From assembly GCA_003175935.1 (NCBI GenBank), contig PSRI01000083.1:1-42008 (forward strand): DNA of 42,008 nt, in the 5' to 3' direction. This DNA comes from Bacteroidota bacterium. GTDB lineage: Bacteria; Bacteroidota; Bacteroidia; Chitinophagales; Chitinophagaceae. Shown one piece after another: positions 8,060 to 40,014 of the stretch (positions are counted from its first letter, which is position 1; every line of letters begins with the position of its first letter). A program made the translations under genes and the position numbers. The notes beneath the pieces were generated by a model. It made no database searches and had not been told where the DNA came from. It saw nothing but the letters and a program-made list of their open reading frames with translations.

Positions 8060-8075
8060 AGTTTCACGTGAAACA
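8060..8075. promoter_or_regulatory. parS: parS-like ParB-binding site 1
   Basis: AGTTTCACGTGAAACA matches 15 of 16 bases of the widely conserved chromosomal parS sequence TGTTNCACGTGAAACA. The 14-base core GTTTCACGTGAAAC is a perfect palindrome. It lies in the 13-bp gap between ybeY and the CAP gene and contains the latter's GTG start codon. ParB would nucleate here for chromosome segregation. No parA or parB gene is in the window. Confidence 0.82.
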
Positions 8076-8733
8076 CATCTTATTTATAGCTTTCATTCTA
8101 ATTTTTGGTCCACAGTTTAGTTTCACTCAATCAATGGTAAGTCTGGAAGACAAAGATTTTAAGCCAGATATCGCTCTTGACACCAGTATTCAAAACTGGT
8201 TAAATTCTTTCCCTGAGTATAAAAACTTAAGCATCGAGGAACAAAACGTCTATTATTGGGTCAATTTCATGAGAAAGGACCCTAAAAGGTTCAGTTCTCT
8301 AGTTTTAACGCCTTTTCTTCAAGAATTCAAAGTCATGGATAATGCAGATTCGAGGTCTTTAAAAGTTGACCTTCAGACAAATTCAACCTTAAAACCATTG
8401 CGACCGAACTCTGCTCTAATAAAAACGGCATCTGTCCAGGCTGCGGATCTGGGCCAAAATGGACGAACGATAAGCCATAATTCAACCGGGGGCAAATCTT
8501 TTGGAGATCGAATGAAAGAAGCCGGCATTCAAAAATGTGCATTTGAAAATATATACAGTGGCAAAAAGGACGCATTGGAAGCAATACTACTTCTTTTAAT
8601 AGATTCCGGGGTTCCGAACAAGGGACATCGAAAAGCTCTTCTAAATGCCGATGTTACTTCAATGGGTGCTTCATTCGCTCCATTTCGGGCACAACAGAAT
8701 TTTGTTCTAGTACAGGATTTTTCTTGCGATTAA
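8068..8733 (+). CDS. Secreted CAP-domain (SCP/PR1-like) protein
   Basis: A 221-residue protein with an N-terminal signal peptide (MKHILFIAFILIFGPQFSFT) and a CAP domain over about residues 45-220. CAP signatures visible are VNFMRKDPKRF, the early His in ISHNST, FENIYSG, and NKGHRKALLN, with the two conserved histidines and ENI. Bacterial CAP proteins are usually exported; functions vary from lipid binding to proteolysis and are mostly unknown. The start is GTG at 8068, fixed by the signal peptide; the next in-frame ATG would remove it. That codon sits inside the parS palindrome. The gene separates ybeY from mnmG. Confidence 0.85.
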   Translation: MKHILFIAFILIFGPQFSFTQSMVSLEDKDFKPDIALDTSIQNWLNSFPEYKNLSIEEQNVYYWVNFMRKDPKRFSSLVLTPFLQEFKVMDNADSRSLKVDLQTNSTLKPLRPNSALIKTASVQAADLGQNGRTISHNSTGGKSFGDRMKEAGIQKCAFENIYSGKKDALEAILLLLIDSGVPNKGHRKALLNADVTSMGASFAPFRAQQNFVLVQDFSCD

Positions 8734-8739
8734 TCACAA

Positions 8740-8755
8740 TGTTTCACGTGGAACT
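8740..8755. promoter_or_regulatory. parS: parS-like ParB-binding site 2
   Basis: TGTTTCACGTGGAACT; its reverse complement AGTTCCACGTGAAACA fits TGTTNCACGTGAAACA at 15 of 16 positions, with C at the variable base. It lies 6 bp after the CAP gene stop and 45 bp before the mnmG start. With the site at 8060-8075 it forms a pair 680 bp apart. I found no third CACGTG-centred copy in the window. Confidence 0.8.
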
Positions 8756-8800: not shown

Positions 8801-10669
8801 ATGTTCACAAATTATGATGTAATTGTGGTTGGAGCTGGTCATGCCGGTTGCGAAGCTGCCGCTTCGGCGGCCAAGATGGGTAGCAAGGTCCTGCTTGTGA
8901 CAATGAACATGCAAACCATCGCTCAAATGAGTTGTAATCCGGCGATGGGAGGAATTGCAAAGGGGCAAATCGTGAGAGAAATTGATGCACTTGGAGGATA
9001 TTCCGGAATAGTATCCGATGAATCCATGATCCAATTCAGAATGCTCAACAGATCTAAAGGTCCCGCAATGTGGAGTCCGAGATCTCAGAATGATAGAATG
9101 CTCTTCTCTCAAAAATGGAGAGAAATGCTTGAAAACACACCGAACCTTGATTTTTACCAGGACATGGTAAATGGATTAATCGTTGAAAGTGATAAATGCG
9201 TTGGAGTAGTTACCGGATTAGGTCATAAGATTTATGCTAAAGCAGTTGTTCTCACAAATGGCACTTTCCTGAATGGGAAAATCCATATTGGAGAAAAGAA
9301 TTTCGGAGGCGGTCGGGTGGCAGAAAAAGCTGCAACAGGAATTACTGAACAATTGGTTTCATTAGGTTTTGAATCCGACCGACTTAAAACAGGCACCCCT
9401 CCCAGGATTGACGGACGAAGCCTGGATTATTCCAAAATGGAAGAACAAAAAGGTGATGATGAAATCGTTGGGTTCAGCTTTCTCAATTCAAAAAAAATCC
9501 GTCCTTCTCAACAAAGAAGTTGTTGGATTACTTATACCAATTCTGAAGTTCACGATTTACTTAAAACCGGATTCGACAGGAGTCCGATGTTCACAGGAAA
9601 AATCGAAGGGATCGGACCAAGGTATTGTCCTAGCATTGAAGACAAAATAAATCGATTCGCAGAACGGGAAAGACATCAGCTTTTTGTTGAACCCGAAGGT
9701 TGGAACACAGTTGAAATCTATGTAAACGGATTCTCAACATCATTACCTGAAGAAGTACAATACGAAGCCCTTCGTAAAGTTGCAGGTTTCGAGTCTGCCA
9801 AATTCTTTCGGCCAGGCTATGCAATTGAATACGATTATTTTCCGCCGACCCAGCTTAAACACACATTAGAGACAAAGCTCATCAATAATTTGTTTTTTGC
9901 AGGACAAATCAACGGAACCACGGGCTATGAAGAAGCTGCCTGCCAGGGATTGGTAGCAGGAATTAATGCACACCAAAAATCAAAAAAACTCGAACCATTT
10001 ATTCTTAAAAGAAGTGAAGCTTACATCGGTGTACTCGTAGATGACCTAATCAATAAAGGAACACAGGAGCCTTACCGGATGTTTACCAGCCGCGCTGAGT
10101 TTAGAACTTTACTGAGACAAGACAATGCTGATTTGCGATTAACAGAACTCAGTTATAATATCGGTTTGGCAACTGAAGAAAGAATTCAAAAAGTAAATCA
10201 GAAAAAAGAAGGACTAGAGATTATAAAAAATTACCTCGATGAAATTTCTATAGAACCCCAGGAGATAAATGAATATCTCGAGGAAATTGGCTCATCTCCT
10301 TTACAACAAAAACAAAAGGCAAAGCAAATTTTGCTCCGCCCCGATCTATCATTGAAATCAATGATAGAATATTCACCCAAACTTTCTGAATCCATTGAAG
10401 CTTATCCTTCAGATGTATTGGAGCAGGCAGAAATTCAGGTGAAGTACGAAGTCTACATCGAAAAAGAAAAAGAATTAGTAGATAAGATGGGAAAACTGGA
10501 AGACCTGGTTATTCCGGAAAATTTTAGTTACGACAAGCTTACTTCTCTCTCTGCAGAAGCACGCCAAAAATTTAATCGCATCAAACCAAGAACCCTGGGT
10601 CAGGCATCAAGAATTTCAGGAGTAAATCCCAGTGATGTTCAAATACTCATGGTATACATGGGAAGATAA
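8801..10669 (+). CDS. mnmG: tRNA uridine-5-carboxymethylaminomethyl(34) synthesis enzyme MnmG
   Basis: FAD-dependent subunit which, with MnmE, installs the cmnm5 group on U34 of certain tRNAs. The 622-residue length is normal. The N-terminal Rossmann motif GAGHAG is at residues 11-16, followed by the GidA family stretches SCNPAMGGIAKGQIVREIDALGG (interrupted here) and TGTPPRIDGRSLDYSKM. The C-terminal region ends in the usual GQASRISGVNPSDVQIL helix bundle thought to contact MnmE. It is the third gene of ybeY-CAP-mnmG, and parS site 2 lies directly upstream. Confidence 0.97.
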   Translation: MFTNYDVIVVGAGHAGCEAAASAAKMGSKVLLVTMNMQTIAQMSCNPAMGGIAKGQIVREIDALGGYSGIVSDESMIQFRMLNRSKGPAMWSPRSQNDRMLFSQKWREMLENTPNLDFYQDMVNGLIVESDKCVGVVTGLGHKIYAKAVVLTNGTFLNGKIHIGEKNFGGGRVAEKAATGITEQLVSLGFESDRLKTGTPPRIDGRSLDYSKMEEQKGDDEIVGFSFLNSKKIRPSQQRSCWITYTNSEVHDLLKTGFDRSPMFTGKIEGIGPRYCPSIEDKINRFAERERHQLFVEPEGWNTVEIYVNGFSTSLPEEVQYEALRKVAGFESAKFFRPGYAIEYDYFPPTQLKHTLETKLINNLFFAGQINGTTGYEEAACQGLVAGINAHQKSKKLEPFILKRSEAYIGVLVDDLINKGTQEPYRMFTSRAEFRTLLRQDNADLRLTELSYNIGLATEERIQKVNQKKEGLEIIKNYLDEISIEPQEINEYLEEIGSSPLQQKQKAKQILLRPDLSLKSMIEYSPKLSESIEAYPSDVLEQAEIQVKYEVYIEKEKELVDKMGKLEDLVIPENFSYDKLTSLSAEARQKFNRIKPRTLGQASRISGVNPSDVQILMVYMGR

Positions 10670-36311: not shown

Positions 36312-37322
36312 TTACAAACCGGCCTGCTTACTGATTTCCAACATGCGTTGTATTGGCTTTAGAGCGGCCTTCCTTAACGTTTCGTCCATAATTAGTTCCG
36401 GTTGTTCATATTCCATGCACAAGTACAATTTTTCAAGCGTATTGAGTTTCATGTGCGGACAATCATTACAAGCGCAGCTATTGTTTGGAGGTGCGGGGAT
36501 AAAAGTTTTCCCGGGGGAATTTTTTTCCATTTGGTGGAGTATCCCCGTCTCAGTTACAACGATATATTCGGTCGATGGATCTTTTTCGGTGAATTTCAGT
36601 AATTGGGTAGTGCTCCCGATATAGTCTGCCACTTTGAGAACCGGATCTTCGCATTCGGGATGAGCGATAACTTTTGCCATGGGATGTTTTGCCTTAAGTT
36701 TTGTGATCTTTTCCAGGCTAAAGATTTCATGCACCATGCAGGCACCATTCCAGAGCACCATATTTCTTCCTGTTTGCTTGTTAATGAAAGCACCAAGGTT
36801 TTTATCGGGCGCAAAAATAATGGGCTGTTGAGGCGGCAAACTGTCTACAATCGCCTTTGCATTTGAAGAAGTGCAAATAATATCGCTCAGCGCTTTTATA
36901 CCTGCCGAACAATTTATATAGGAAATAACTATATGATCAGGATATTTTTCCCGGAATTTCCTGAATAGTTCAGGGGGTGCAGAGTCGGATAATGAACATC
37001 CTGCCTTAAGATCGGGCAACAATACCTTTTTGGTTGGATTCAGAATTTTGGCGGTTTCAGCCATAAAATGGACACCTGCAAAAACTATAATATCTGCCTT
37101 AGTCTTTTCTGCCTGTTGCGCGAGGCCCAAACTGTCTCCAATATAGTCAGCCACATCCTGGATATCCGGCTCCTGGTAATAGTGAGCGAGGATGACTGCG
37201 TTCTTTTCTTTTTTCAATCTTTCGATCTCGTGAAACAAATCCAAGTCCGTGTCAATTTCCAGATCCAGGAAACCCGTACTTTCCAAATTGGATTTCGCAG
37301 TATCGATGTTAATTACTGCCAT
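36312..37322 (-). CDS. nadA: Quinolinate synthase
   Basis: A 4Fe-4S enzyme that condenses iminoaspartate with dihydroxyacetone phosphate to quinolinate, the committed step of de novo NAD synthesis. The three cluster cysteines expected from the family are Cys109 (LKAGCSL), Cys195 (WNGACMVH) and Cys288 in the CACNDC segment. The N-terminal [20 protein letters not shown] and the [12 protein letters not shown] motifs are typical. The length of 336 is normal. nadB and nadC are not in the window; nadD is at 6741-7310. Its start faces the origin-like region. Confidence 0.96.
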
Positions 37323-37357
37323 AGTATTTATAATATTCTTTCTTTTTTATTTAAAGA

Positions 37358-37839
37358 CCCTATTACTATTAGGGCTGTGAATTCGGGGAAAGATTATTGT
37401 GTGAAAGAATAGGCAAATTTAATTCTATTGTGTTATCCACCATAATCCCCAAATCTCCCACAGGTAGAAAAACAGTTGGGCGGCCTCTTTAGTTGAGTTG
37501 CTAACAATGTGGATGAAAAAGTGATGAGGAAAAAAACATTGAAAAAAAAGTTAAATGGCGGTGTTGATATAAGGGTGATACATTGTTGATGATAAAGAAA
37601 TCGGACAATAAGTGGAAGTTCTTCCCAAAACCAAATAAGGATTTTCCCGAATTAATCACGGATAAAAACTGAAAAACTAAGGGTTTTCAACATTATTCAA
37701 TGGGTTTGCACATGGTGATGTGGAAATGAAAAAATTCAAAAATGTTCCTGAAATTACCGGCCAGGAAAACCAGATAATTCACATGAAAAAAATCCCACCA
37801 GTAAAGGATTTCAGGGCCTTTTCCACAATTTGTTGATAA
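37358..37839. other. oriC: Candidate chromosomal replication origin (oriC), DnaA-box cluster
   Basis: The 568-bp gap 37323-37890 has no credible ORF and holds many 9-mers close to the DnaA box TTATCCACA. One mismatch: TTATCCACC 37433-37441 (+), TCATCCACA 37508-37516 (-), TTTTCCACA 37819-37827 (+), TTATCAACA 37831-37839 (-). One mismatch to TTATNCACA: TAATTCACA 37775-37783 (+). Two mismatches: 37562-37570 (-), 37584-37592 (-) and 37719-37727 (-). An A-rich stretch (37516-37553) could be the unwinding element. By a rough random estimate fewer than one such single-mismatch 9-mer is expected here. No dnaA gene is adjacent; in Bacteroidota dnaA is often apart from oriC. Confidence 0.5.
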
Positions 37840-37860
37840 TGCTTTATTCCCCTATTTTTG
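37829..37860 (+). promoter_or_regulatory. Promoter of ppiD
   Basis: TTTG (37829-37832), a 20-bp spacer and TATTTTTG (37853-37860) fit the Bacteroidota -33/-7 consensus fully. Transcription would start near 37866, leaving about 25 bases before the ATG at 37891. The -33 region overlaps the last DnaA-like boxes. Confidence 0.65.
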
Positions 37861-37890
37861 CCCTCCACTAAAAAACCACATTCAGTATTT

Positions 37891-40014
37891 ATGTCTATTA
37901 TACAGACAATAAGAGACAGAGCAGCGATTCTTGTATTTGGAGTAATTGCTATAAGCCTTATCGGATTTCTGGTTCAGGATGCATTTGTTGGTAAAACAAG
38001 CTCACTTTTCAGAGGTAATGCCACAACAGTTGGATCGATAAATGGAAAAGACATTTCAAGAGAAGAATATGATTTGAGAGCCAGAATGGCAGAAACCCAG
38101 TACCAGGAACAGGGTTATACAGTTAATGAAGGAATAAGAGGGGAAATCTATAACCAGATATGGAACGGCTTTGTAAGCAAAGAACTGCTTGAGTCGGAAA
38201 CCGACAAACTCGGACTGGAGTTCACTCCAAAAGAATTAGGAGAGTTGTTATTCAGCGACAGGGCTCCCCAGGAATTCAGAAGACAATTTACCGATCCGCA
38301 AACAGGTATATATAATATTGAAGAGGCGAAAAATGCTTTCAGGAATTTGCAAAGAAGCAAAAACACCGCGCAGGTAAAACAGGTTAATGAACAATTACTG
38401 GATCCGATTTCACTCAACGAACTCAGTCAAAAATTCATGGCTATTTTTAAAGGAGGAATTTATTTCCCTAAATGGCTCATTGAAAAACAAAACACAGAGA
38501 ATAGTCTGATCTCAAAGATTTCGTATGCAGGCGTTAATTATGCAACGATTCCCGATAGCAGCGTAAAAATTACTGACGATGAAATCAATCAGTATGTAAG
38601 TGCGCATAAAGATCATTTCAAGCAAACACGAAGCAAAAGCATCGCGTATGTTTCTTTTAGTGATGCACCCAGTGCAGCGGATTCAGCAGCATTGAAAAAA
38701 AGAATGGAGGACCTGAAAGAGCCTTTTGCACAAGCTACCGATGCAAACGCTTTCTTAAACAAAAACTCAAGCAAGATTCCTTTTTACGATAGTTACCTCG
38801 GAAAAAACAGAATACAGGTTTCTGTAAAAGATACTTTATTTAAGATGGCACCCGGACAGGTATTCGGACCATACCTTGACGCGGGTTCATATGTTCTAGC
38901 CAAAGTTATTGCCATCAAAACACTTCCTGATTCAGTAAAGGCGAGACATATTCTTATTGCAACAACTAATCCTCAAACAGGTCAACAAATTCTTGAAGAT
39001 AGTATTGCGAAGAAAAGAATCGACAGTATTGAACTTGCAATTAAGAATGGTGCGTCATTCGACACTATGGCTTTAAAATTCTCTGATGATAAAAGTTCTG
39101 CCATCAAAGGCGGAGATCTCGGATATTTTGCCCAGGGAACTATGGTAAAACCGTTCAATGATTTTGTGTTCGAAAAAACCAAAGGCGAAAAAGGGGTAAT
39201 CAAATCTGATTACGGATACCATTATATAGAAATAGAGGATCAAAAGGCTTATGAGCCTGCTTATAAAATTGCTTATATGTCGAGGCCGATCGAAACAAGT
39301 GATGAGACAGATAAAGCAGCCCAGGCAGCAGCGAATCAATTTTCTGTATCGAGCCGCGATCAAAAATCTTTCGATGATAATGTTGCGAAACAAAAACTCA
39401 ACAAACTATTTGCGGATAATATTCCGGAAATGGGATTCCAGATAGGGGCTTTGGGCACTTCAAGACAACTCATCAAATGGGTTTATGATAACAAAACCGG
39501 AACTGTTTCAGATCCTTACCTTGTTGGTAATGCATATGTAGTTGCGATAGTAACCGGTGAAAAAGAGGAAGGAACACAATCTGCGGCGACTGCAAGAGCA
39601 GTAGTGGAACCTATTTTGATGAGAAAGAAAAAGGCAGAACAAATCGCACAAAAATATGGCACCTTCAATACTGTTGAAGAGTTCGCATCTAAAACCGGAC
39701 AGCAGGTATCAGTTGCAGACACCGTACGATTTGTAGATAATTTCATTCAAAAGCTGGGTGCAGAAAGCCTGATAATCGGCGCCTCATTTAATAAAAATTA
39801 CGAGTCTAAAGTTTCCCCTGTTTTGCAGGGTGCAATGGGCGCATATGTCGTTAAGGTTGAAAATATTGGAGCTATACCCAATGCAGAAGCAAACGTAGAC
39901 CAGCAAAGAAAAGCGATGTCTGCCGGCCTAGCTCAGGGATTAGAACAATCAATTCTCGGAGCTTTAAAAGACGCGGCCAAAATAAAAGATAAAAGATTAA
40001 GTGCAGGCTACTAA
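37891..40014 (+). CDS. ppiD: Membrane-anchored peptidylprolyl isomerase (PpiD/SurA-like)
   Basis: A 707-residue periplasmic chaperone anchored by one N-terminal helix (AILVFGVIAISLIGFLVQ). A SurA-N-like helical region follows (about 40-330), then a parvulin (PpiC) domain at about residues 350-450, opening with VKARHILIAT and including SDDKSSAIKGGDLGYFAQGTM. A further alpha/beta C-terminal region completes it. PpiD-type proteins help fold outer-membrane and secreted proteins. I chose ATG 37891: an upstream TTG at 37858 overlaps the -7 promoter element and would precede the predicted transcription start. A strong terminator follows at 40036. Confidence 0.92.
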   Translation: MSIIQTIRDRAAILVFGVIAISLIGFLVQDAFVGKTSSLFRGNATTVGSINGKDISREEYDLRARMAETQYQEQGYTVNEGIRGEIYNQIWNGFVSKELLESETDKLGLEFTPKELGELLFSDRAPQEFRRQFTDPQTGIYNIEEAKNAFRNLQRSKNTAQVKQVNEQLLDPISLNELSQKFMAIFKGGIYFPKWLIEKQNTENSLISKISYAGVNYATIPDSSVKITDDEINQYVSAHKDHFKQTRSKSIAYVSFSDAPSAADSAALKKRMEDLKEPFAQATDANAFLNKNSSKIPFYDSYLGKNRIQVSVKDTLFKMAPGQVFGPYLDAGSYVLAKVIAIKTLPDSVKARHILIATTNPQTGQQILEDSIAKKRIDSIELAIKNGASFDTMALKFSDDKSSAIKGGDLGYFAQGTMVKPFNDFVFEKTKGEKGVIKSDYGYHYIEIEDQKAYEPAYKIAYMSRPIETSDETDKAAQAAANQFSVSSRDQKSFDDNVAKQKLNKLFADNIPEMGFQIGALGTSRQLIKWVYDNKTGTVSDPYLVGNAYVVAIVTGEKEEGTQSAATARAVVEPILMRKKKAEQIAQKYGTFNTVEEFASKTGQQVSVADTVRFVDNFIQKLGAESLIIGASFNKNYESKVSPVLQGAMGAYVVKVENIGAIPNAEANVDQQRKAMSAGLAQGLEQSILGALKDAAKIKDKRLSAGY

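Follow-up and report, generated by a model that had tools for sequence, protein, structure and literature searches.

In the window, i.e. the 42,008-bp stretch of DNA from a Chitinophagaceae genome analysed here, two divergent genes flank an intergenic gap of exactly 568 bp (37323–37890). To its left lies nadA, which encodes quinolinate synthase (36312–37322, minus strand, start at 37322; Pfam PF02445, E 2.5e-124), and to its right ppiD, which encodes a PpiD/SurA-like prolyl isomerase (37891–40014, plus strand; Pfam SurA_N_2 and Rotamase_3), both being read away from the gap. A longer ORF opens at a TTG, but its homologues align with it from approximately residue 10–12 onward, which is why ATG 37891 was taken as the ppiD start. 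The GC content of the gap is 34%, with its lowest-GC 100 bp starting at 37325, which confirms both the extent and the AT-richness given in a preliminary description of this DNA.

Five 9-mers in the gap are at most one mismatch away from the DnaA box TTATNCACA, none of them being perfect. These are TTATCCACC (37433–37441, plus strand), TCATCCACA (37508–37516, minus strand), the weak box TAATTCACA (37775–37783, plus strand) and the two members of a convergent pair upstream of ppiD, TTTTCCACA-ATT-TGTTGATAA (37819–37839), i.e. TTTTCCACA at 37819 on the plus strand and TTATCAACA at 37831 on the minus strand. Dinucleotide-preserving shuffles of the gap yield a mean of 0.84 such boxes (P = 0.001 for five or more), while TTATCCACA at up to one mismatch is found four times compared to 0.24 expected, a count reached by 0/1000 shuffles. 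The five near-perfect boxes on both strands thus stand as previously described; the total of eight that accompanied them varies with the number of two-mismatch sites that are counted. Although the gap is the densest 568-bp stretch for DnaA boxes in the window, peak density by itself, over 42 kb scanned, is only suggestive of a replication origin.

Comparison with relatives adds considerably to this picture. PpiD was detected in 148 of 149 family genomes, and in the fetched family loci that include nadA, the two genes are divergent around a gap of 454–857 bp, the position and length of the region thus being kept. These gaps always contain DnaA boxes (1–6, versus 0.0–0.4 expected), and both the nadA-gap-ppiD arrangement and the box positions are retained even in relatives whose PpiD is only ~40% identical. 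In the alignment of the family gaps, two conserved blocks stand out. The block beside nadA consists of AT-rich DNA, CTAYTAYTATTA, a short spacer and TGTGnATnnGTGGATAA, followed by TTATCCAC and CACA repeats; TTATCCAC is the form in which the alignment column of the box at 37433–37441 is kept family-wide, and GTGGAT of the box at 37508–37516 is likewise kept. The block beside ppiD is TTTTCCACA-ATT-TGTT(G/C)ATAA, i.e. the convergent pair, which is kept family-wide. Few parts of the gap are as well conserved as this pair, which lies ~50–70 bp upstream of ppiD, is also noted in loci L018 and L006, and could possibly constitute a DnaA-controlled ppiD promoter.

From 29 loci, the window's own sequence among them, we built a sequence-only model of 140 positions (R1), which matches the window at 37332–37468 on the plus strand (E 1.2e-22, 81.8 bits; the second-best match in the genome has E 0.026). 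This genome and 11/11 single-contig relatives have exactly one strong site each, with E-values of 1e-8 to 3e-22 compared to 0.005 for the next best match. More broadly, the site was found in 270 of 296 family genomes, most of which were no input to the model, and is nearly always single. Among named genomes, the element lies directly upstream of nadA at 29 NadA loci, and the closest named NadA relatives of the window's genome belong to the Chitinophagaceae (Chitinophaga, Niastella, Foetidibacter and others). No such element was detected upstream of nadA at E <0.01 in the loci of Pedobacter, Mucilaginibacter, Sphingobacterium and Saprospiraceae. At E <0.001, R1 has matches outside the family in ~20 of approximately 240 Bacteroidia genomes, with ~0.25 expected. 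These matches are weaker, abut nadA in five genomes and, in 13 of the 16 matched genomes that have parS, lie 1–13 kb from it on the same contig; the core may thus date far back in the class Bacteroidia.

The conserved element refines the initial call of the whole gap: the origin core is its nadA-proximal portion. Here, a putative DNA unwinding element (DUE), a trinucleotide TAY repeat resembling DnaA-trios, a spacer and tandem DnaA boxes follow one another. The proposed DUE (37323–37359) is the lowest-GC part of the gap and is AT-rich in all aligned relatives, a conservation of composition only. Next to it, the repeat TAT-TAC-TAT-TAG (37361–37372, plus strand) has core T/A positions that are invariant in 29 loci. 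The tandem box positions (37376–37392, minus strand) are degenerate in the window (GAATTCACA, three mismatches) and read TGTGGATnnGTGGATAA in several relatives.

This architecture is reminiscent of the basal origin unwinding system (BUS) described for oriC of Bacillus subtilis (PMC6669920, PMC8287927), which requires three or more 3′-NAN-5′ trios and, no further than 16 bp from them, a DnaA box (PMC8287927). Read outward from the boxes, the repeat in the window is 3′-GAT-TAT-CAT-TAT-5′, which fits this rule with four trios; at least four are present in 29/29 aligned loci. In 25 of the 29 loci, the trios have a correctly oriented box with up to two mismatches to TTATCCACA at a distance of no more than 16 bp, often in tandem, whereas both trio-proximal boxes of the window have three or more, the best one having three (two if the fifth base is left free). 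As in B. subtilis, DUE, repeat, short spacer and tandem boxes come in this order, the central A is on the strand running 3′→5′ from the boxes, the first trio of the window is 3′-GAT-5′, and of the two tandem boxes it is often the distal one, 11 bp away from the trios, that matches better. Differences exist as well: the repeat is TAY-TAY-TAY-TAN (mostly 3′-YAT-5′) rather than mainly 3′-GAT-5′, the boxes of the window are degenerate, and the origin is not located beside dnaA.

A second likeness concerns enterobacterial origins. In oriC of Escherichia coli, the DUE and GC-rich bases are followed by TGTGGATAA, a layout to which the core is similar. Moreover, oriC of E. coli and Yersinia lies between gidA (mnmG) and mioC (PMC10225481), and in the relatives studied here mnmG is likewise nearby and dnaA not adjacent. 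The flanking genes, by contrast, are nadA and ppiD, mnmG is 27 kb away in the window, and no homology of the cores is claimed.

The wider neighbourhood contains centromere-like sites. Two parS sites, AGTTTCACGTGAAACA (8060–8075) and TGTTTCACGTGGAACT (8740–8755), each one mismatch from TGTTNCACGTGNAACA, lie 28.6–29.3 kb from the gap, and the parS pair previously reported about 29 kb away is therefore real. The second site directly precedes mnmG (8801–10669), and the two bracket a small YkwD-like gene with a CAP domain (8068–8733). Closed relatives have the same parS-mnmG arrangement, the distance between the R1 site and parS being 3–14 kb in 11/11 compared to 29 kb in the window, and those neighbourhoods of relatives that were read run nadD-ybeY-parS-mnmG-nadA-oriC. 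In G329, a genome that belongs to a different Bacteroidia family, seven parS cores stand in tandem at a spacing of ~98–99 bp (C24:13203–13809), with further copies on contigs C28, C40 and C43.

The dnaA gene, in turn, is 0.4–3 Mb from the R1 site in all 11 closed relatives, which makes the earlier remark that automatic finders may miss this site an apt one. One deposited record (G116) takes dnaA as its starting point, ~0.7 Mb away from its origin; with dnaA unlinked to oriC, rotating records to this gene misplaces coordinate 1. Independently of this, the window's genome has a second, weak DnaA-domain match (G000:C149:1207–1443, E 7e-9) that may represent a DnaA-like or another AAA+ protein.

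As the window extends only 4 kb rightward of the gap and belongs, as a single contig, to a 4.43-Mb draft assembly that comprises 274 contigs, strand asymmetry was read in closed relatives. Raw GC skew of 20-kb samples was noisy and misplaced the minimum in G143 and G086. We therefore took third-position GC skew as the mean of plus-strand and minus-strand genes, which cancels coding bias; this correction settled most cases. Going from left to right across the R1 site, the corrected skew changes from negative to positive in six of the seven genomes examined (G115, G118, G023, G143, G121 and G019), with sample-shuffle p-values of 0.0002 in five and 0.004 in G143. In two of them the cumulative minimum falls within 0.5 kb of the core: at 3222315 in G121 (core at 3222723–3222857) and at 2375555 in G019 (core at 2375571–2375696). 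Resolution is lower elsewhere, since skew places the origin only to within ~100–350 kb in G115 and G118, and the local minimum in G143 is 15–20 kb from the core. The position of dnaA scored far worse in the six fitting genomes and was rejected as the origin. The GC-skew check proposed earlier thus came out in favour of the element except in the 8.4-Mb genome G086, where no switch was seen at the predicted origin. Just to the right of it (C1:6062000–6122000), third-position GC skew is strongly negative (down to -0.3), contrary to expectation; a rearrangement such as an inversion, or foreign or acquired DNA, might explain this misfit, but this is a guess.

Relatives in which nadA and ppiD have become separated are particularly informative. 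In G121 and G019, ppiD is 55 kb and 105 kb away from nadA, respectively, and the core and box cluster have stayed with nadA, with 12 boxes within 600 bp at the nadA-side core of G019. The skew minimum of both genomes falls on this core and not at ppiD, and the origin is therefore located on the nadA-side core despite the distant ppiD. Conversely, the convergent box pair of G121 is found with ppiD (C1:3167439), meaning that it does not fix the position of the origin. As a landmark, ppiD was discarded, since G121, G019, G023 and G118 have it at a distance from the core. In locus L006, the core adjoins ppiD and nadA is not detectable.

Taken together, we consider the nadA/ppiD gap to be the chromosomal oriC of this Chitinophagaceae genome, with a probability of approximately 95%; the candidate origin of the preliminary description is thus borne out by family conservation, including the suggested check of the boxes, which are kept along with the core element, and by the skew switch in closed relatives. 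The position of the element, its uniqueness and conservation, the parS linkage and, in relatives, the switch of skew are all observed, and several hallmarks of a DnaA-type oriC coincide here: a box cluster above chance, an AT-rich stretch beside the boxes, a switch of skew in six of the seven closed relatives tested, one copy per chromosome and closeness to parS. As DnaA also acts as a transcription factor, the gap might instead be a DnaA-regulated divergent nadA/ppiD promoter region, with the true origin elsewhere nearby, e.g. at parS or mnmG. The box pair ahead of ppiD does move with ppiD in the split locus, as a promoter element would. However, without ppiD at the site, core and box cluster persist beside nadA with the skew minimum on the core, and in G121, where 8 kb separate parS and mnmG from the core, the minimum sits on the core, too, rendering this alternative very unlikely.

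Conservation of the gap as a leader, a riboswitch or a small gene that serves nadA expression would account for a core that abuts nadA and remains with it, but the reading as an RNA leader was rejected because no Rfam family matched the gap at E-values of up to 1. Such an explanation also sits poorly with L006, where the core is beside ppiD, and with several non-family matches that lie beside parS in genomes with no nadA detected, and it leaves the skew and parS data unexplained; we regard it as exceedingly improbable. The same negligible weight is given to the notion that the boxes are enriched by chance in an AT-rich spacer of a draft genome. Admittedly, with 42 kb scanned, a single gap reaching P = 0.001 is less than compelling, yet the same element recurs family-wide at the same place and in single copy per genome, coinciding with the skew switch and parS.

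If the gap functions as oriC, DnaA made elsewhere on the chromosome would bind its double-stranded boxes, spread leftward from the tandem boxes (37376–37392) onto the trinucleotide repeat (37361–37372) and open the AT-rich stretch toward nadA, allowing helicases to be loaded. Two forks would then depart in the reading directions of nadA and ppiD, and the new origins would be segregated by ParB acting on the parS sites. DnaA binding, unwinding on the repeat and helicase loading at the gap are what we infer from this architecture. More speculatively, the TAY repeat and tandem boxes might be a variant unwinding module that forms the common origin core of Bacteroidia and is passed on without linkage to dnaA, while a DnaA-box pair that can be separated from it would tie ppiD expression to initiation; this broader proposal is a tentative one.

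Literature searches outside DoriC, largely of freely available papers, uncovered no report that places an origin at nadA/ppiD in Chitinophagaceae. Ori-Finder and DoriC score the same kinds of features as those used here, namely skew minimum, DnaA boxes and DnaA-trios; their default indicator gene, adjusted by lineage, is dnaA, which is uninformative in Chitinophagaceae. The core thus constitutes a sequence-based origin marker for a large family in which dnaA is no guide. Such a marker can be employed to orient draft genomes and MAGs, to derive growth rates from coverage and to construct oriC plasmids for poorly tractable Bacteroidota, while the rearrangements seen in relatives allow origin function to be told apart from the genes that usually adjoin it.
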